The translations under genes were made by a program, and so were the position numbers. This document shows, piece by piece, positions 35,840-62,580 of a stretch of 64,000 nt of DNA (its first letter is position 1; each line of letters opens with the position of its first letter). The DNA comes from Comamonadaceae bacterium (lineage in GTDB: Bacteria; Pseudomonadota; Gammaproteobacteria; Burkholderiales; Burkholderiaceae_C), in NCBI GenBank assembly GCA_007280205.1, contig QYPX01000059.1, positions 35,030-99,029 on the forward strand. The letters are read 5' to 3'. A model generated the notes under the pieces. It ran no database searches, was not told where the DNA came from, and saw only the letters and a list, made by a program, of their open reading frames with translations.

Positions 35840-38068
35840 ATGATCCATTCTGATTCTTCTTTCCGCTTTCACCGCAGCCTGCTGGCGCTCTCGCTGGCCG
35901 CCGCCTTCCTTCCCTTGCAAGCGCACGCCGAAGGCGACGATGCAGCCCCGATTACGAGCGTCAGCTTTGGTCTGGGCCTGCAAAGCGGCTCCAGCGCCGA
36001 CCACGCGCAGTTTGGCCAGTACAACGGCCTGCGCGCCGACCGCAACTTCTTTGGTAACCTGGGTTTCAGTCACAGCCTGCGCGACACAGAAAAAAGCAAC
36101 TGGCTGCAGATCGAGGGTTCCAACCTGCTGGGCGAGACCCGCGAACTCAGCCTGGTCAAGAAAGACCCCGGCAACTGGAGGCTCAGCGCTGCCTACGGTG
36201 AACTGGTGCGTTATGAGCCCAACACGGTCAACAGCGGCCTCCTTGGCGCCGGCTCCAGTACGCCGCAAGTGGTCGCTCTGGCCGCTGGCAGCGGGTCCGA
36301 CCTCGAACTCAAGACCAAGCGCAGCGCTCTGGGCCTGGGTTTTTCCAAAACCATCAACCCGGCGCTGCAGTTTGACCTGGATCTGAAGAGCGAAAACAAG
36401 GACGGCGCGCGCCTCTCCGGCATTGGCATCAACTGCCCCACCGTGATCGCTCCCGGTTGCCTTGGCACCACCCTCGCCAACACCGGCTGGGCCAGCCTGA
36501 TGCTGCCCGAACCCGTCAGCGCCAACCACAGCCAGGTCGAGGCCCGCCTCACTTACGGCGCCGAAAAGCTGCGCTTCAACCTGGGTTACTACGGCTCCTT
36601 CTACCGCAACAACAACGGCAATCTGACCGGCAACATCCCGGGCAGCCTGTACAACCCGGTGGGCAGCCTGCTGCCCCTGAGCACCGGCTTGCGCGCTGTA
36701 CTGGGCCAGCCCGTGGCGCTGGCGCCAGACAACCAGGCACACCAGCTGGATTTGAGCGGCAGTTACGATCTGGGCAGCGCCACCCGCGCTACCTTCAAGC
36801 TGGCACGCAGCGTGGCAACGCAGAACGCCGACTTTGCCGCTGCCGGTTTGACCGGCGCCCCGGCGGGCGTGAACAACCTGGACGGCCAGGTTCGCAACTC
36901 GCTGGCCAAGCTCAGCCTGAGCTCGCGCCCGGTGCGTCAGCTTTCCCTGCTGGCCGACCTGCGCTACGAGAAAAAGGACGACCAGACACCGCTGGCCACC
37001 TACAACATCGAAGGTGCGGTGCCTGCATTGCCGGCCTTGCCCTTCACCTACACCAACCGCAATCTGTCGAGCCAGAAGGGCAATGCCAAGCTGCAGGCCA
37101 GCTGGCAGTTGAGCAGCGACTACCGTGCCACGCTGGGCGCCGATCGCGAAACGATTGACCGGGGCGAATTCACCGCCAGCAGTGCCATCTCGGGCATCAG
37201 CGCCCTGCGCCAGAAGACCAACGAGAACACGGTGCGCGCCGAGCTGCGGGGTCGCCTGGCAGAGACTTTGACTGGCAGCGTCGCCATCTCGCGCAGCAAG
37301 CGCGATGGCTCCAACTGGCTGAAAGACAACAGCGGATTGGGCGTCACCGAAGTCATCAACCCGGCCGATCCGGTCACCGGCTTGTTGCCGACGTCCGTCT
37401 TCATGCCAACGCTCTCAGACCGCCAGCGCAACAAGGTCAAACTGTTTGCCGACTGGCAGGCCAGCGAGGCCCTGTCGCTACAAATCAGCGCAGAGAGTGG
37501 CAGTGACCGCTACACCACACCCAGCAGCTACGGTCTGCGTGACACCGGAGTGCATCAGTTCAGCCTGGACTGGGCCTATACGCTGTCCGACAACTGGGGC
37601 CTGACCGGTGCGTTCTCGAGCAGCCAGCAAAGCCTGAACCAGGCGCGCGCCGCTGCTTACCTGATGGCGTTTGACAACAGCAACCTGGGCGCCAGCATCG
37701 GCGCCAACGGCAAGATCAACGCCAAGTTGGATGTTGGCGGCAGCCTGTCCTACGCCGGCGACAAGAGCGTCTATGGCCAGACCCTGGACAGCCTGGCCGG
37801 CAGCGATTCTGTCGCCCTGCTGGCCGCTACCGGTGGCTTGCCTGACATCCTGTACAGCCAGACCGCGCTCAAGCTGTTCGGCAAGTACGCGCTCGAAAAG
37901 GGCTCTTCGGTGCGCGTTGACTTTGTGCACCAGCGCAACAACGTCAACGACTGGACCTGGAGCTTGAACGGTGTTCCCTACGTCTATTCGGATGGCTCCA
38001 CGGTACTGCAAAAGGCCAACCAGAGCGTCAACGTCATCGGCGTGACCTACGTCTACCAGTTGCCTTAA
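35840..38068 (+). CDS. mtrB: MtrB/PioB-type outer-membrane beta-barrel
   Basis: 742 aa, signal peptide, alternating beta strands (NWGLTGAFSSSQQSLNQARAAAYLMAFDNSNLGASIGANGKINAKLDVGGSLSYAGDKSVYGQ), adjacent to mtrA. Confidence 0.9.
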   Translation: MIHSDSSFRFHRSLLALSLAAAFLPLQAHAEGDDAAPITSVSFGLGLQSGSSADHAQFGQYNGLRADRNFFGNLGFSHSLRDTEKSNWLQIEGSNLLGETRELSLVKKDPGNWRLSAAYGELVRYEPNTVNSGLLGAGSSTPQVVALAAGSGSDLELKTKRSALGLGFSKTINPALQFDLDLKSENKDGARLSGIGINCPTVIAPGCLGTTLANTGWASLMLPEPVSANHSQVEARLTYGAEKLRFNLGYYGSFYRNNNGNLTGNIPGSLYNPVGSLLPLSTGLRAVLGQPVALAPDNQAHQLDLSGSYDLGSATRATFKLARSVATQNADFAAAGLTGAPAGVNNLDGQVRNSLAKLSLSSRPVRQLSLLADLRYEKKDDQTPLATYNIEGAVPALPALPFTYTNRNLSSQKGNAKLQASWQLSSDYRATLGADRETIDRGEFTASSAISGISALRQKTNENTVRAELRGRLAETLTGSVAISRSKRDGSNWLKDNSGLGVTEVINPADPVTGLLPTSVFMPTLSDRQRNKVKLFADWQASEALSLQISAESGSDRYTTPSSYGLRDTGVHQFSLDWAYTLSDNWGLTGAFSSSQQSLNQARAAAYLMAFDNSNLGASIGANGKINAKLDVGGSLSYAGDKSVYGQTLDSLAGSDSVALLAATGGLPDILYSQTALKLFGKYALEKGSSVRVDFVHQRNNVNDWTWSLNGVPYVYSDGSTVLQKANQSVNVIGVTYVYQLP
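38033..38064 (+). repeat. mtrB 3'-end direct repeat, copy 1 (inside mtrB)
   Basis: gtcatcggcgtgacctacgtctaccagttgcc, 32 bp, identical to 38698..38729. Confidence 0.95.
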
Positions 38069-38415
38069 GTCGGGTGTAGCTCCTCGCGAATCACTTCGCG
38101 CAGTGCTTCTTTGACGGCGTCCGCCTGCAGCCCGCGGCGCAGCGTTTCGTTGATGAGGGTCTGGTAGCCACGCCCACCGGCGCGTGCCTTGTAGGCGTGC
38201 AGCACCGCATTGTCGAGTTTGATCGTGATGCGAGTCTTGCCAGTTGAAAGCATGGGCAAAACCTCACCCAGTGGTCGCAGTTGGGCTGCCTCAGCCGGCG
38301 TCAACTCGGGGCTATCCTCATCACTTGCGTCAGCCAGTGGAGCCGCCTCCACGGCCGCCCAGTCAATCGCTGGCGTCGAATCAGAGGGCATTAGCTTCAA
38401 ATTTCTTTTGCTCAC
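38065..38415 (-). CDS. brnA: BrnA-family antitoxin
   Basis: GKTRITIKLDNAVLHAYKARAGGRGYQTLINETLRRGL; GTG start overlapping the brnT 3' end. Confidence 0.88.
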   Translation of the reverse strand: MSKRNLKLMPSDSTPAIDWAAVEAAPLADASDEDSPELTPAEAAQLRPLGEVLPMLSTGKTRITIKLDNAVLHAYKARAGGRGYQTLINETLRRGLQADAVKEALREVIREELHPT

Positions 38416-38656
38416 GGATGTTGGCCTTTCTAAAGGAGATGATGTGGATTTGCTCAAACACTGGCAGGCAAAACACCACCACCATCAAGCGTCCAGCGAG
38501 TTGGTTATAGCCAACAAACCGGCGCTCTGAATAGGTCCGTCTGGTGTCCTCGCGCACAAGCATAGTCGCCGTAAACATGGCGCGGGCCGCCAGCAAGGGC
38601 AACTGCCGATCACGCACATTCACAGCGTTCTTGTCCGGATTGCAGGTAAATTGCAT
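38381..38656 (-). CDS. brnT: BrnT-family ribonuclease toxin
   Basis: MQFTCNPDKNAVNV...REDTRRTYSERRFVGYNQLAGRLMVVVF...IHIISFRKANIREQKKFE. Confidence 0.85.
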   Translation of the reverse strand: MQFTCNPDKNAVNVRDRQLPLLAARAMFTATMLVREDTRRTYSERRFVGYNQLAGRLMVVVFCLPVFEQIHIISFRKANIREQKKFEANAL

Positions 38657-38666
38657 TGTCTGAATT

Positions 38667-38686
38667 GTGCATATTTTAATATGCAC
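38667..38686. promoter_or_regulatory. Candidate brnTA operator: perfect palindrome GTGCATATT-TT-AATATGCAC
   Basis: 9+2+9 inverted repeat 11 bp upstream of the brnT ATG. Confidence 0.6.
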
Positions 38687-38697
38687 CGTCAATCAAG

Positions 38698-38729
38698 GTC
38701 ATCGGCGTGACCTACGTCTACCAGTTGCC
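38698..38729 (+). repeat. mtrB 3'-end direct repeat, copy 2
   Basis: Perfect 32/32 copy followed by G TAG in the mtrB frame; lies beyond brnTA. Confidence 0.95.
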
Positions 38730-38770
38730 GTAGCGAACGGCTCGGGGCAGAACGTTTTCCGAAACTGCCC

Positions 38771-38797
38771 GGCCACCCCCGAGTGGGGGATTCTTTG
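38771..38797 (+). terminator. Possible rho-independent terminator after mtrB-tail copy 2
   Basis: CCCCC-GAGT-GGGGG-ATTCTTT. Confidence 0.45.
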
Positions 38798-38851
38798 GTG
38801 TTCGTGTAATTACTATACAAAACAAAAAATGTGTAGTAACGTTCGTCAGTC

Positions 38852-39913
38852 ATGCAAACCCTCTCGACTGAGCTTTCCCTGAGCGCGCAGGCATCCTATT
38901 CGGAGATGTTTGACGCCGCATTGGCCAACGACATGGCGCCGTTTTCCCTGCTGACTGGCGCCTTTCACAAGCGAGCCATTCGGGGCCATGAGTACGTCTA
39001 TTTTGGCTACCGCGACATTGACGGCACCGGCCGCATGGCTTACGTTGGACCGAACAGCGAGCGGGTTCAGTCACTGGTCGCCAATTACAAGGCGGCGCTG
39101 GGTGGGCGCCAGGACCTGCTGAAGAAGCGTGCAGCGGCGTCCAAAGCTTTGGGATGCACCGAGATGCTGGACAAGCACTTTCGGATCGTTCACAAGCTTT
39201 CCGCCTATGGTTTTTTCAAGGCAGGCGGCGTTCTCATTGGCACGCATGCCTTCACCGCATTTGGAAACATGCTTGGCGTGCGCTGGATGTCGGGCGACAA
39301 GACGCTCGATGTTGACTTTGCACATGCAGGTCGGAACATTTCGATTGCCCTGCCTGCCAACATCAGCATATCGGTTCACGATGCCATCACCTCGCTGGAG
39401 ATGGGATTGCTGCCAGTGCGCGAATTCTCTGGCGCCACCGGCGCCCAGTATCGCAACCCCGACGACCCGGAACTTCGCATTGATTTCCTGACAAGCAACG
39501 CTGGACGCGAATCGGCCGACGGTGTCGTTCGGATGGAAGGCCTGGGCCTGGTGCTGGAGCCACTGAAATTCATGGAATTTTCATTGGAAGGGACGACCCA
39601 GGGGGTGGTCTTCTCTGGCTCTGGTGCCTGCGTTGTGAATCTTCCCGACCCCGCGCGCTACGCTGTGCACAAACTCATTGTGTTTGGTGAAAGACCGATC
39701 GCCCAGCGCGCCAAATCCAACAAGGACCTGGTGCAGGCCGCCGCCCTGGTCGAGTGGCACCTCGCCAACGGGGCGTCTGAAAGGGTGGCTGCTGCGTGGC
39801 AAGACGCCGTTGGCCGAGGCTCTGGATGGAACCAACGAGCGGAGCAGGGTCGCGCCGAATTGCTTGCCCGCTACCCGCACCTGGTGAACGCCTTCGGTGC
39901 CGATTCTGGCTAG
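38852..39913 (+). CDS. GSU2403-family (NTP_transf_8-like) nucleotidyltransferase-fold protein
   Basis: 353 aa; GVLIGTHAFTAFGNMLGVRW...TLDVDFAH pattern, RYAVHKLIVFGERP. Confidence 0.7.
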   Translation: MQTLSTELSLSAQASYSEMFDAALANDMAPFSLLTGAFHKRAIRGHEYVYFGYRDIDGTGRMAYVGPNSERVQSLVANYKAALGGRQDLLKKRAAASKALGCTEMLDKHFRIVHKLSAYGFFKAGGVLIGTHAFTAFGNMLGVRWMSGDKTLDVDFAHAGRNISIALPANISISVHDAITSLEMGLLPVREFSGATGAQYRNPDDPELRIDFLTSNAGRESADGVVRMEGLGLVLEPLKFMEFSLEGTTQGVVFSGSGACVVNLPDPARYAVHKLIVFGERPIAQRAKSNKDLVQAAALVEWHLANGASERVAAAWQDAVGRGSGWNQRAEQGRAELLARYPHLVNAFGADSG

Positions 39914-39919
39914 CCCAAG

Positions 39920-39933
39920 GTCTACCAGTTGCC
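39920..39933 (+). repeat. mtrB 3'-end repeat, partial copy 3
   Basis: gtctaccagttgcc (14 bp exact), 7 bp after the nucleotidyltransferase stop codon. Confidence 0.75.
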
Positions 39934-40067: not shown

Positions 40068-40133
40068 TTGATCTAGAACAAACTCACGACTTGATGTGAA
40101 GCAGAGAATTCATCGGTGTAAACCCTTTGTAAA
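40068..40133 (+). promoter_or_regulatory. Promoter module of decaheme 2: TTGATCTAGAACAA / GAGAAT / GTAAA-N6-GTAAA
   Basis: FNR-like box 40068-40081, -10-like 40104-40109, direct repeats 40118-40122 and 40129-40133. Confidence 0.65.
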
Positions 40134-40176
40134 GTGTTTTTTCCGTGTGTGTTTCTTGAGACTTAAGGAGTCTGAT

Positions 40177-42927
40177 GTGAAATTATTTGACAAAAGCATG
40201 AATCAACCGCCCTCTCATTGGGCCAAGCTTGCTGCGGCAGGCTTGCTGGTGGCTGCTGCGCTCGCCGGTTGCGGCGGTGGTAGTGACGGTGCAGCGGGAC
40301 CCGCTGGCGCGGCCGGCCCAGCTGGTGCCGCTGGCGCCGCTGGCGCAACCGGACCGGCCGGCACCAATGCCGTGGCAACGGTACAGATCAAGGCGCTTTC
40401 GAGCGATCAATGGGCTGCGCTGGCGCCCAAGGGTGAAGTCACCAAAGTAACCATGGGCGGCGCGCCGGTGGTCGAATTCAAGGTGACCGATGCCAACGGC
40501 TTCCCGATTGTCGGTCTTGGCAATACGTCCAAGAGCGCGACGGCCACCGTTGCCAGTTACCCCAACCTGGCCTTTGCCCTGGCCAAGCTGGTCCCAGCCA
40601 CCACTACCAGCCCCAGCAAGTGGGTTAGCTATCTGGTGACTACCGTGCCCAGCACCACAGCAGCGCTGACCGCTACCCGCCCCTCCACCGATGCCAACGG
40701 CACGCTGGTGGACAACGGTGACGGCAGCTACAAGTACACCTTCTACCGCGACATCACCAAGGCCAAAGCCGTGGTTGATGGCCTGACGCTGGTCAGCCCG
40801 AACGTCGCCGCCGACCTGGGCGACCTCAGCTACGAACCAACGTTGACACACCGCGTGGTGGTCCAGGTTTCCGGTAACGCACCGGGTACGGGTAGCAATA
40901 CCGCGAACGCCGTGACAGTGATGCCTGCGGTCGCCATGCTCAATCCGGTCAACCTCGTTTATGACTTCATTCCGGCTACCGGCAAAGTGGTCACCGCAAC
41001 CGACACGCAACGCGAACTGGTCTCCAAAGACAGTTGCAATGAGTGCCACAACCAGATTGGCGTGACCACACCGCATGGCGGGCGCGTTGACACGCGCTAC
41101 TGCGTGATGTGTCACACCGATCAGCGCAAGTTTGGCTATGCCAGCGTGGCGTCGGTGGCCGGCAAGTTCCCGGCACTGACAGAAACAGCTACTGTCAATG
41201 CCACAACCGGCATTACCAGCTACAGCTATTCCCCGGAAACCCGGATTGCCGACGGTGAAGTTTCAGGCAACTTCCCGATCTTCATCCACAAGATCCACAA
41301 CGGCGGCGAACTGGTGAAGTCAAACTACAACTACGCCAACGTGGCCTTCAATAACAAGGGTTATTCGATGCTGGGCGGCGGCCAGAAGATGTGCAGCAAG
41401 TGCCACGACAGCGCCAAGGCAGCACAGGCCGACAACTGGAGCTCCAAGCCGAGCCGCCAGGCCTGCGGTTCTTGCCACGACGGTATCAACTGGGCCACCG
41501 GTCTGGGTTCGACACTGGCTGACAAAGCCGCTGCGGGTGCTGTTGGCGCCGTGATGGCCACCACCGGTCACATCGGCAAAATGCAAACCAGCGATGCAAC
41601 CTGCGTGCTGTGCCATGACGCAGCAGCGGTCAAGATCTATCACCAGACTGAAAACATTACCGCCCACAATCCAACGATTGCGGCCGGCCTGAAGACCTTT
41701 ACCTATGACGTCCTGTCGGCCACGGTTGATGCCACCAGCAACGATGTGACCATCAAATTCAAGGTCAGCGCCGACGGCACGCCGGTCACTTACCTGGCCC
41801 CGGCAGCTGCCATGGCCAATCCGCTGACTGGCTTTATCGGCAGCCCAAGCTTCCTGCTGGCCTATGCAACGGCGCAGGATGGCGTAGCAGCACCGATCGA
41901 CTACAACAACACCGGCGTCAAACAGGCGCAAGCTGTCAGCGTTTCGATCGCCAACCTGCTGGATACCACAAAGACTGCGGACGGTTCACTGTCAGCCACG
42001 GCCGATGCCAGCGGTTACTACACTGCCACCCTCAAGGGTACGGGCACCAAGAAGTTCCCGGTTGGCGCCAAAATGCGTGCGGTGGGTCTGCAAGGCTACT
42101 TCACCCAAAACGCAGTGGCGGTTGGTGGCGTTGCTACAGCGCGGCACGCCATCTCGGTGGTCAAAGCAGTCACGGGTGACGCAGTGCGGCGTACCGTGGT
42201 CGATCCGGCCAAGTGCTCCAGTTGCCACGAATGGTTCGAAGGGCATGGCGGTAACCGCGTCTATCAAACCCAGGTTTGTGTGATGTGCCACACGCCTGGT
42301 CTAGCGACCAGCGGCCGTGGTATCTCGGACGCGGCCCTGATGGCCTATCCGTTCAGCGCAGCCGATGTGAAGATCCTGGGCTACTGGGGCTTCGACAAGA
42401 CCGTGGTGAACGCCGCCTTGAACTTCCCTGTCGTTACCAACAACTTCAAGGACATGATCCACGGCATCCACGCTGGTCGCGACCGCGTGACACCGTTTGT
42501 TGACGCACGTGACCGCACACCTTCGGCCATCACCCTTCTCGACTTCAAGAGAATGGACTTCCCGGGCAAGCTCAACAAGTGTGACACCTGCCACGCGACC
42601 GGCACCGCATTGGCCACCACCTTCAACACGGTGCCCGCGGGTGCTCTGGCTTCGACCTACGAGTCCGTCAACGCAGCCTACTTAGCAGCGCCCACTCCGG
42701 CCACCGCGAAAGCCGCTTTGAGCACAGCCAACCCGGAAGACAAGGTCACCACGCCTTTTGCCGCAGCCTGCGTCAGTTGCCATGACTCCTCGCTTGCGCA
42801 GGGTCACATGAGCCGCGAAGGCGGGCAGATCAAGGTGAGCCGCAGTGCCATGAACCTGGCTGGCGAAGGTTGCGCCCTGTGCCACGGCGCCGGCGCAGAC
42901 TTTGACCCGGTCAAGGCGCACAAATAA
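40177..42927 (+). CDS. OmcA/MtrC-family decaheme cytochrome lipoprotein with collagen-like linker (paralog 2)
   Basis: GTG start after TAAGGAG; lipobox LAGCGGG; 8 Gly-X-Y triplets; 10 CxxCH counted. Confidence 0.94.
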   Translation: MKLFDKSMNQPPSHWAKLAAAGLLVAAALAGCGGGSDGAAGPAGAAGPAGAAGAAGATGPAGTNAVATVQIKALSSDQWAALAPKGEVTKVTMGGAPVVEFKVTDANGFPIVGLGNTSKSATATVASYPNLAFALAKLVPATTTSPSKWVSYLVTTVPSTTAALTATRPSTDANGTLVDNGDGSYKYTFYRDITKAKAVVDGLTLVSPNVAADLGDLSYEPTLTHRVVVQVSGNAPGTGSNTANAVTVMPAVAMLNPVNLVYDFIPATGKVVTATDTQRELVSKDSCNECHNQIGVTTPHGGRVDTRYCVMCHTDQRKFGYASVASVAGKFPALTETATVNATTGITSYSYSPETRIADGEVSGNFPIFIHKIHNGGELVKSNYNYANVAFNNKGYSMLGGGQKMCSKCHDSAKAAQADNWSSKPSRQACGSCHDGINWATGLGSTLADKAAAGAVGAVMATTGHIGKMQTSDATCVLCHDAAAVKIYHQTENITAHNPTIAAGLKTFTYDVLSATVDATSNDVTIKFKVSADGTPVTYLAPAAAMANPLTGFIGSPSFLLAYATAQDGVAAPIDYNNTGVKQAQAVSVSIANLLDTTKTADGSLSATADASGYYTATLKGTGTKKFPVGAKMRAVGLQGYFTQNAVAVGGVATARHAISVVKAVTGDAVRRTVVDPAKCSSCHEWFEGHGGNRVYQTQVCVMCHTPGLATSGRGISDAALMAYPFSAADVKILGYWGFDKTVVNAALNFPVVTNNFKDMIHGIHAGRDRVTPFVDARDRTPSAITLLDFKRMDFPGKLNKCDTCHATGTALATTFNTVPAGALASTYESVNAAYLAAPTPATAKAALSTANPEDKVTTPFAAACVSCHDSSLAQGHMSREGGQIKVSRSAMNLAGEGCALCHGAGADFDPVKAHK

Positions 42928-42982
42928 ACCTGTGCCCAGGGACCGGGAGACCCTCTCCCGGTCTGTTTGACAAGCTCACAAC

Positions 42983-43011
42983 CCGGCTGCGGCGACGCAG
43001 CCGGTTTTTTT
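42983..43011 (+). terminator. Rho-independent terminator after decaheme 2
   Basis: CCGGCTGCG-GCGA-CGCAGCCGG-TTTTTTT. Confidence 0.85.
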
Positions 43012-43063
43012 GCCGCCAAGCCCATGTGTGGGTCTGCCATATCGAAAGCTAAATATCTGAAGC

Positions 43064-43129
43064 TTGATTTAAAACAAACCTTCGGGGTGTGGTGAAGCAG
43101 AGAATTCCTCGGTGTAAACCCTTTGTAAA
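43064..43129 (+). promoter_or_regulatory. Promoter module of decaheme 3: TTGATTTAAAACAA / GAGAAT / GTAAA-N6-GTAAA
   Basis: Box 43064-43077, GAGAAT 43100-43105, repeats 43114-43118 and 43125-43129. Confidence 0.65.
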
Positions 43130-43172
43130 GTATTTTTTCCGTGTGTGTTTCTTGAGACTTAAGGAGTCTGAT

Positions 43173-45914
43173 GTGAAATTATTTGACGATACGATGAACA
43201 GGCCGCCCACTCATTGGACCAAGCTGGCTGCGGCTGGCTTGTTGGTGGCTGCTGCCCTTGCCGGTTGCGGCGGTGGTAGTGACGGTGCAGTTGGCCCCGC
43301 AGGCCCTGCCGGCCCTGCGGGAGCAGCCGGCGCAACCGGCCCAACCGGCCCCGCTGGTGCTGACAAGACCACCGGCACAGTGGACGCTGCGCAGCTCGGC
43401 TTCGCTGACCTGACCAACAAGGCCCTGGCTGGCAAGGTCTTGAGCGTTGATACCTCGGGCAACCAGCCGGTCGTCAACTTCCAGGTCGTCATGAAAGACA
43501 CCAACGAAGGTGTGCGCGGTCTGCGGACTTTTGCTCTGCACATTGCGCAGCAAAAACCCGCCGTTGACGGTAGCGCCTCTTACTGGCTCAACTACCTGGC
43601 CGACGGCCTTCCACTGACGGCTGATCCAGCTGCCGCGGCGGCCAAGGTCAATCCGAGCGCAGACTCCGTTACATCATTCAATGCCGACGGCACCGTCAAG
43701 GGTCAAGGCTATGCAGTGACCGATAACGGCGACGGCACTTACGCTGTCAAGTTTGGCGCCAACATCAAGGCGAACACCAAGGTCGTTTACGACGCATCAC
43801 TGACACACCGTGTCGTGGTTGGCGTGCGCAGCGTCGCCGTTCCTGGCGTGGTGGGCAAAACGGCTGGCGCTTACGCCGGTCCGCTCAACCCGCTAACCGG
43901 TGCTGTCATTGCGCAGTTCACCAACACCAACGGTACCAACCTGGCCTATGACTTCAAGCCGGCAGCAACAGGTGTGGGCGCGGTCCTGAAAGACAGCGCT
44001 GGCAATGCGACCTTTGCCCGCGACAACGTCACGGTAGCCGCTTGCAACCAGTGCCACATGAAGCTTGAATACGGCTTCCCGCGCGGCAACAACACCAGCG
44101 GTCACTTTGGTTCGCGTACCGACACCAAGACCTGCGTGATGTGCCATACACCGCAAAACACAGCGGGCAAGGGCGACTTCACGACCTTCATCCACAAACT
44201 GCACATGGGTGAGGAACTGAAGAAAACAGAATTGCTGTTCTGGAGTACCACCTTGAACTACAACGAGGTCAAGTACCCGCAGGATGTCAGAAACTGTGCA
44301 CAGTGCCACAAGGGTTCTGTCGTTAACAGTCAGTTGACACCCACGCTCAAGGCTTGCGGTTCCTGCCATAACGCAGTGGACTTCAGCCTGGGTAATGTTG
44401 CTGGCGGTCACATTGGTGGTGCCAAGGCTGACGACAAGACCTGCGCGCTGTGCCATGACGCAGCAGACATTGGCTTGAATCACGTCGCCGTGATCGCACC
44501 CGATCCAGCCAACGTCTTCAGCACCCCGGTCGGTGGCAACAACAACACCAACGCGTCCTACCTGGCCGCAGTCGGTGTGGTGCCTTCCGGCGCAGCGAAG
44601 ATTACTTACGCCATTTCCAGCGTCACACGCAATGCAACGACGGGAAACCCATCGATTGTTTTCAAGCTGATGAAAGACGGCGCTGACGTGGTCTTCAATA
44701 CCTACTCCGCCACCGGCAAGACCGAACTGATTGATGGCTTCGTGGGTTCACCCAGCGTGTACTTCGCGTTCTCCGTCGCACAAGACGGTATCGCTGCACC
44801 GGCCGACTACAACGCCAGCGCCAGCACCTACATCAAGAACATCTGGCGTGGTGATGGCAAGGACGTCAAGGGTGCCGCTCTGGCCGCCGCTGCCGTGGGC
44901 ACCATAACCGGCCCGGTCGCTGGCTACTACACCATCACGCTGACGGGTGTGAACGTTCCGGCAACGGCCAAGATGCTGACCGGTGGCGTGGGTTACACCT
45001 ACGGCCTGGCCACCACCCTGCCGCTGACGCAGATCAACCTTGCCAAGTATCCGTACACGGCCAATGCCGCTACGGTCAACTCCGGCGTGGGTGGTGTGGG
45101 TGGCCTCAGTGTCCCGGCACCGAACGTCTGGAAGGTAGCTACCGGCTTTACGGGTCGTCGTCTCATCACCGACACAGCCAAGTGCAATGCCTGCCACGGC
45201 GCGTTGGGTGTCAAGCCCACGTTCCATGCTGGCCAACGCAACGACGCACAGACCTGTACGTTCTGCCATAACGTGAACCGGACCAACAGCGGCTGGCCAG
45301 TCAACATCAACTACGACGTGCACGCCATCCACAATGGCAAGAGCGGCCAGCGTACAAACAAGTTCAGTTGGGAAGCGACTGCCGGCGCCAAGTTCTGGGA
45401 AGTGGGCTATCCAGGCCAACTCAAGAACTGCGAAGGCTGCCACATCGCTGGTATGTATGACTTCAGCAATACAGCCTACGTCGGTACCGCCACGGTCCCG
45501 AGCGTTGTGCCTAACCTGCTGATGACCACCGCTGCCAGCGGCACCATCAACGCCGCTGGCTTCCAGATCATCACGGGTCTCGAAACTGTCCTGAGCACGA
45601 GCTCGGTCATTTCGCCCTTCGTGACGCCCGGAACCGCTTACGGCGTAACCTTCAGCTTTAACGCCAACACCGGCGTGACGGTCCCTGCGGCAGACACCAC
45701 GCTGGTGCTCTCGCCCATCAGTGCCGCCTGCTCCGGTTGCCACGACTCCAAGATCGCTCGCGCTCACATGAAGAGCAATGGCGGCTCGGTGTTTGATCCG
45801 CGCACGGAAGCCATGGCCAAGACAGAGCAGTGCCTGGTTTGCCATGGCCCGGCCAACAACGCGGTATTCAACGACACCGTGCCGACCATCAAGCTGGTGC
45901 ACCGTTGGTGGTAA
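43173..45914 (+). CDS. OmcA/MtrC-family decaheme cytochrome lipoprotein with collagen-like linker (paralog 3)
   Basis: GTG start after TAAGGAG; lipobox LAGCGGG; 8 Gly-X-Y triplets; 10 CxxCH counted. Confidence 0.94.
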   Translation: MKLFDDTMNRPPTHWTKLAAAGLLVAAALAGCGGGSDGAVGPAGPAGPAGAAGATGPTGPAGADKTTGTVDAAQLGFADLTNKALAGKVLSVDTSGNQPVVNFQVVMKDTNEGVRGLRTFALHIAQQKPAVDGSASYWLNYLADGLPLTADPAAAAAKVNPSADSVTSFNADGTVKGQGYAVTDNGDGTYAVKFGANIKANTKVVYDASLTHRVVVGVRSVAVPGVVGKTAGAYAGPLNPLTGAVIAQFTNTNGTNLAYDFKPAATGVGAVLKDSAGNATFARDNVTVAACNQCHMKLEYGFPRGNNTSGHFGSRTDTKTCVMCHTPQNTAGKGDFTTFIHKLHMGEELKKTELLFWSTTLNYNEVKYPQDVRNCAQCHKGSVVNSQLTPTLKACGSCHNAVDFSLGNVAGGHIGGAKADDKTCALCHDAADIGLNHVAVIAPDPANVFSTPVGGNNNTNASYLAAVGVVPSGAAKITYAISSVTRNATTGNPSIVFKLMKDGADVVFNTYSATGKTELIDGFVGSPSVYFAFSVAQDGIAAPADYNASASTYIKNIWRGDGKDVKGAALAAAAVGTITGPVAGYYTITLTGVNVPATAKMLTGGVGYTYGLATTLPLTQINLAKYPYTANAATVNSGVGGVGGLSVPAPNVWKVATGFTGRRLITDTAKCNACHGALGVKPTFHAGQRNDAQTCTFCHNVNRTNSGWPVNINYDVHAIHNGKSGQRTNKFSWEATAGAKFWEVGYPGQLKNCEGCHIAGMYDFSNTAYVGTATVPSVVPNLLMTTAASGTINAAGFQIITGLETVLSTSSVISPFVTPGTAYGVTFSFNANTGVTVPAADTTLVLSPISAACSGCHDSKIARAHMKSNGGSVFDPRTEAMAKTEQCLVCHGPANNAVFNDTVPTIKLVHRWW

Positions 45915-62448: not shown

Positions 62449-62460
62449 AGGCGGTCATCT

Positions 62461-62580
62461 TTGTCATTGCCACCCTCGTTGTCATTGCGCCCTCGTTGTC
62501 ATTGCGCCCTCGTTGTCATTGCACCCTCGTTGTCATTGCGCCCCCGTTGTCATTGCGCCCTCGTTGTCATTGCGGACTTG
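62461..62580. repeat. 17-bp tandem repeat array (TTGTCATTGCGCCCTCG, 6 units) running into a REP-like arm
   Basis: Units at 62461, 62479, 62496, 62513, 62530, 62547; seventh start continues as ttgtcattgcggacttgatccgcaat. Confidence 0.92.

Follow-up and report, generated by a model that had tools for sequence, protein, structure and literature searches.

How does a toxin module that carries no recombinase come to lie between repeated copies of the end of a host gene? The question is raised by mtrB, the gene for an MtrB/PioB decahaem-associated outer-membrane barrel, in a 64,000-nucleotide stretch of DNA (the window) that is part of a 99-kb contig (QYPX01000059.1) from the 4.19-Mb draft genome of a Comamonadaceae bacterium, here designated G000. 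The 32 bp immediately preceding the stop codon of mtrB, the tail, recur downstream of a brnTA toxin-antitoxin module and, in a degenerate form, behind a nucleotidyltransferase (NTase) gene. Small modules of toxin-antitoxin or toxin-like type have come to lie behind the 3′ end of mtrB again and again in Rhodoferax. The copy of the tail inside mtrB keeps the host gene whole, and relatives differ in which modules accompany the tail copies and in what order. The spread of recombinase-free toxin-antitoxin modules between chromosomes is an open question, and because relatives from one genus show this one gene end empty, with one module or two, with the modules reordered, and in decay, the transfer route is testable here.

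Copies of the mtrB tail

The repeat and its modules are formed by the following features, given in window coordinates.

35840–38068, plus strand: mtrB, the host gene with duplicated final codons (TIGR03509, E = 6e-140; open reading frame call)
38033–38064, plus strand: tail copy 1, within mtrB (...VIGVTYVYQLP); exact repeat, present as one copy only in the empty-site relative G019
38065–38415, minus strand: brnA antitoxin gene, convergent with mtrB (PF14384; homologues of 116 aa)
38381–38656, minus strand: brnT toxin gene (PF04365; internal deletion in relative G103)
38698–38729, plus strand: tail copy 2, exact 32-bp repeat between brnT and the NTase cassette
38852–39913, plus strand: NTP_transf_8 family NTase gene, 353 aa (PF12281, E = 3e-45)
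39914–39933, plus strand: tail copy 3, degenerate, 20 bp, 17/20 matches; its first base is the first after the NTase stop (alignment with G028)
40177–42927, plus strand: decahaem c-type cytochrome gene with a predicted start, the native next gene at the empty site (directly 3′ of mtrB in G019)

The profile matches, TIGR03509 for MtrB, PF14384 and PF04365 for BrnA and BrnT, and PF12281 for the NTP_transf_8 protein, confirm the gene calls of an earlier note on this DNA, which had been made from the sequence. The BrnT toxin and BrnA antitoxin domains are located in overlapping genes and score above the cut-off, which identifies a BrnTA type II toxin-antitoxin system. The start of brnA was placed at a GTG codon, as used in homologues. 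Searches with PADLOC and NCBIfam gave no match for the toxin genes.

Tail copies 1 and 2 are identical at 32 of 32 positions, as the earlier note had reported, and the extended segments 38028–38067 and 38693–38732 match at 38 of 40 positions; no 32-bp repeat is expected (100 shuffles). The stops that follow them differ as described, with CCT TAA after copy 1 and CCG TAG after copy 2. Copy 2 is chimeric: its upstream bases resemble the mtrB of the window, and its CCGTAG stop resembles that of relative G035. Behind the NTase gene, a 14-bp core had been noted at 39920–39933; the 14-mer is there, but the true extent of copy 3 (CCCAAGGTCTACCAGTTGCC) is 20 bp, starting from the first base after the stop. 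A derivation of copy 3 as CAAGG plus the 14-mer through an internal deletion of copy 2 was dropped; in the alignment with G028 it is a simple degenerate 20-bp copy. The end of brnA coincides exactly with the junction, and the TTAA at 38065–38068 is common to the stops of brnA and mtrB. The sequence downstream of copy 3 is that of the native site, as seen in the native flank of G103.

No other site in the whole window, on either strand, matches the tail at 15 or more of 20 positions. A search of 90 Rhodoferax genomes for a 26-bp tail motif with at most two mismatches gave 20 matches, located only at mtrB ends or in cassette-end copies, and the control for this search gave no match in the same genomes. 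Because the matches are confined to these places, the tail repeat can be assigned to mtrB and is no chance occurrence. A repeat scattered across genomes without regard to mtrB is thereby rejected; it was one of two findings that, according to the earlier note, would speak against its proposal, the other being empty-site relatives without any duplication, and neither of the two applies. Among 892 gene-like 3′ ends, sampled around module loci so that the figure is not a genome-wide rate, tail recurrence of at least 19 bp within 3 kb is nearly limited to module loci, tandem flagellin genes, and one minisatellite. No open reading frame for a recombinase, integrase, or transposase was found between the tail copies, and a search of the 99-kb contig for tyrosine recombinases (PF00589) gave no match, in agreement with the earlier note. 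Terminal inverted repeats were sought at the cassettes, which contain weak, scattered inverted matches only.

The site behind mtrB in relatives

The downstream regions of 47 mtrB ends were read, some of which stop with the contig and are not judgeable; the compared genomes are nearly all draft or metagenome assemblies. A toxin-type module is present at nine of the 47 ends. In G019 (MtrB 86% identical), a single tail without a module is followed by the cytochrome gene, which represents the empty site. The site in G103 (MtrB 97% identical) consists of mtrB, brnTA with an internally deleted brnT, and a second tail matching at 30 of 32 positions, with the native sequence directly downstream; exactly between the tail copies, the NTase cassette of the window is missing. 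In G028 (MtrB 85% identical), mtrB is followed by the NTase gene, a 20-bp tail (16/20), and a remnant of brnA. This tail begins at the first base past the NTase stop, the same position as copy 3 of the window, and together with the brnA remnant it aligns in register with the mtrB-brnA junction of the window (71 bp, 79%, E = 2.5e-10). The order of the NTase and brn modules is therefore reversed relative to the window, while the relation of each border to its tail is kept. In G035 and G018, the NTase gene follows mtrB, and the second tail is absent. Right after the NTase stop, G018 (L037, G018:C395 from 1473) contains an IS5-type transposase-like sequence, named by eye, and G035 has ordinary downstream sequence.

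The NTase proteins encoded behind mtrB in G028, G035, and G018 are 93–94% identical to that of G000. The mtrB DNA of G000 and G035 is 68% identical, without an introgressed tract. Since the NTase is approximately 93% identical but mtrB only 68%, the exchange point is placed in the final ~30 bp of mtrB. Joint introgression of mtrB and the NTase gene was considered and not seen; the raised identity at the 3′ end is equally present against the empty-site G019.

Other modules occupy the same position. In G015, genes for MntA (PF01909) and HepT (PF01934) lie behind mtrB with an exact 40-bp copy of the mtrB tail of that genome. A HipA_C protein is encoded behind mtrB in G029, followed by 136 bp of the mtrB 3′ end at 76% identity, and in G007, where the stop of the HipA-like gene is at the beginning of a decayed mtrB-derived stretch. 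G089 contains a HipA-HipB pair and no tail copy. The duplicated tail thus measures 20, 32, 40, or 136 bp depending on the cassette, with no fixed identity block. The right border of the module is at the last codons or the stop of the toxin gene in G000, G028, G015, and G007. In the HepT-like protein of G015 (L033, 6764–7168, minus strand), the duplicated MtrB tail, translated in frame, forms the C-terminus (GVIAVTYSYQLP).

The earlier note had proposed that cassettes insert at the mtrB 3′ end, leave the host gene intact, and make the tail a hotspot for toxin or defence cassettes, and had suggested searching relatives for empty sites and for other tail-flanked cassettes. The relatives bear this out: they provide a single-tail empty site (G019), further tail-flanked cassettes (G015 and G029), a site from which the NTase cassette is precisely missing (G103), and a set of modules including brnTA, NTP_transf_8, MntA-HepT, HipA-like, and HipBA.

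Duplicated ends of unrelated genes and the route of insertion

Similar duplications surround toxin modules at other host genes. In G080 (L170, G080:C59, 2820–5859), duplicated nrdR/glyA 3′ ends, with ~80 bp of nrdR, enclose a related NTase gene together with a PIN-domain gene and a fragment of glyA; an intact nrdR comes next, and the contig ends within the repeat. In G071 (L178, G071:C18, 2949–6504), a cytochrome c7 gene is followed by a related brnTA, convergent as at mtrB, and 3′ of it are a 495-bp, 89% identical duplicate of the 3′ part of the cytochrome c7 gene, an HTH gene, and a Fic-family gene. A toxin island in G013 lies between a glycosyltransferase gene (family named by eye) and a decayed second copy of the 5′ part of that gene. 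The toxin array of G035 (L165, G035:C181, 136–3468) is positioned between two partial copies of a gene end resembling that of a peptidyl-prolyl isomerase (DVVILSATQTQ-stop; family by eye); it holds a relBE-like remnant, an NTase gene, and VapBC-like and MazEF-like modules. Direct repeats span seven of 26 HepT loci, several of them REP-like, and none of 30 loci of the HTH_18 control family. Flanking repeats were left uncounted at L166 (tandem flagellin genes), at L169, L171, L217, and L220 (interspersed repeats, REP-like or of other kinds), and at L191 (palindromic interspersed repeats).

The variable length of the copies, the lack of a common core, and the unrelated host genes speak for a general process and not for a fixed attachment site. 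On balance, we think that toxin modules have probably been inserted repeatedly with duplication of the target end, by recombination over short homologies with DNA that was incoming or had been circularised. A module would arrive on DNA bearing its own copy of the mtrB end, taken from the equivalent locus of another strain. This DNA could be a linear piece, attached by homology at one end and by end-joining at the other, or a small circle formed from joined ends. A crossover in the short homologous tail would generate the arrangement tail-module-tail with native sequence beyond it, and the insertion would be tolerated because mtrB is regenerated. Recombination between tails may later remove modules, as in G103, or move and reorder them, as in G028. 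A dedicated integrase would not be required, and the modules may persist by addiction. Related processes have been described in bacteria: circularisation of incoming linear DNA by ligation and its integration by a single RecA-dependent crossover in E. coli (PMC3240628), and the insertion of restriction-modification genes with long, variable target duplications, termed insertion with long target duplication (PMC3031569, PMC1643837).

Several observations weigh against insertion by short-homology recombination. Tails of 20–32 bp are short for RecA-dependent recombination, and the right borders of the modules in the four genomes listed above, at the very end of the toxin gene, are tighter than random end-joining predicts. 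The cassettes without a second tail in G035, G018, and G089 require a later loss or a different route. Neither excision nor movement of a module has been seen, and the comparison relies on assemblies that are nearly all draft or metagenome.

The best-surviving alternative is that the cassettes are non-autonomous and are moved by a site-specific recombinase that acts in trans and uses the mtrB tail as its attachment site, as in integrative elements at gene 3′ ends or integron cassettes. Several unrelated modules share one site with precise junctions, the module order differs between G000 and G028 with unchanged borders, the NTase cassette is missing exactly between tails in G103, and the genome of G000 contains 17 tyrosine-recombinase matches outside the contig. 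We keep this reading under consideration because of the tight right borders in four cassettes and the stop TTAA shared by brnA and mtrB. Nevertheless, it is unlikely: the tail copies have neither a common length nor a common layout, related modules flank the duplicated ends of unrelated genes, and no larger integrase-bearing element was noticed by eye, without an integrase model, downstream of the 47 mtrB ends. The earlier note had likened the cassettes to integrative elements at tRNA 3′ ends, and this comparison with integrase-driven elements is not supported as drawn: there is no integrase or transposase, the duplications vary from 20 to 136 bp, related modules lie at duplicated ends of unrelated genes, and several cassettes have no second tail. 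Insertion with a long and variable target duplication suits the pattern better than an att-site system would.

Somewhat more doubtful is homology-facilitated illegitimate recombination as the sole route, in which a linear donor, with no circle involved, recombines within mtrB and is attached by its other end to the tail of the recipient. The copies match until the host stop and then diverge as orthologues would, and the start points of the second copies vary. The families ComEC and DprA are present in the genome, so that DNA uptake is possible, a point that counts for the favoured route as well. Against a linear donor, mtrB contains no donor tract upstream of the tail, and the NTase gene of the window is located behind tail copy 2, where the homology amounts to only ~32 bp. 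With still greater reserve, one may picture a Rhodoferax cassette-exchange system in which a host-gene 3′ end travels with the modules as their exchange site for one cellular recombinase acting in trans, so that the mtrB end would resemble an integron platform without an integron. That the repeats reflect chance similarity, or arose as artefacts when mixed strains were assembled, is very improbable even with draft and metagenome assemblies and contigs that end in repeats (G080, L170), given the zero expected matches, the restriction of matches in 90 genomes to mtrB-linked places, the near-limitation of at least 19-bp recurrence among the 892 3′ ends described above, and a brnTA junction common to two separate genomes (G000 and G103).

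Known systems and neighbouring features

The mtrB cassettes resemble insertion with long target duplication in that an addiction-type module without its own integrase is flanked by direct target duplications of variable length, the host gene stays whole, and the repeats can drive loss or rearrangement. The features shared at mtrB are an empty single-copy allele (G019), a variable flanking duplication, and the lack of a transposase, integrase, and terminal inverted repeats. The described cases are restriction-modification genes, whereas the modules in the window are BrnTA and NTP_transf_8. The mtrB cassettes further differ in their short tails (20–136 bp), the reuse of one gene end by unrelated modules, and the reorderable array. 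The original account of the process for restriction-modification genes is reportedly that of Nobusato et al. 2000 (Gene 259:99).

Integrative elements that occupy the 3′ ends of genes or tRNAs likewise bear the target 3′ end, regenerate the target, and accrete in tandem, but the mtrB cassettes have no integrase, measure 0.65–1.2 kb, contain variable identity blocks, and have relatives at unrelated host genes. As in integrons, including those with toxin-antitoxin cassettes, the units are small and hold single modules, and the array order changes while borders are kept. The mtrB array differs by having no integron integrase and by an exchange sequence that is mtrB coding DNA and not a recognised attC (no attC model was run). 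The pdif modules of XerC/XerD have 28-bp dif-like sites in inverted order; the mtrB repeats are direct (no dif model was run). A literature search combining Rhodoferax, mtrB, and toxin-antitoxin found no paper. The gene mtrB serves electron transfer to minerals. Addiction modules are linked here to the outer-membrane electron-transfer genes of Rhodoferax; they could stabilise the electron-transfer cluster or merely occupy a permissive spot.

The left end of the NTase cassette contains two further features.

38776–38797, plus strand: terminator-like hairpin CCCCC-GAGT-GGGGG-ATTCTTT (consensus match only)
38810–38839, no strand assigned: near-palindrome TTACTATACA-N10-TGTGTAGTAA, just 5′ of the NTase gene, a candidate operator

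The possible terminator of the earlier note corresponds to the hairpin, which fits the consensus, but comparable sites are no rarer in shuffled sequence. Sequence alignable to the hairpin region comes after mtrB in G028 and G035. The near-palindrome is mostly retained in G028, G035, and G018. The NTP_transf_8 gene has no partner gene, although the near-palindrome lies upstream of it, and its protein is therefore regarded as a putative toxin. The NTP_transf_8 relatives at L170 of G080 and L165 of G035 have a different palindrome at the equivalent position.

Beyond the cassettes, the window contains two tandem decahaem cytochrome genes (40096–45914) with near-identical upstream leaders (translated RCKPFVK..FFRVCFLRLKESDVKLFD). 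A minisatellite-like array of short units (TTGCGCCCTCGTTGTCA) is located at approximately 62450–62580 on the plus strand.

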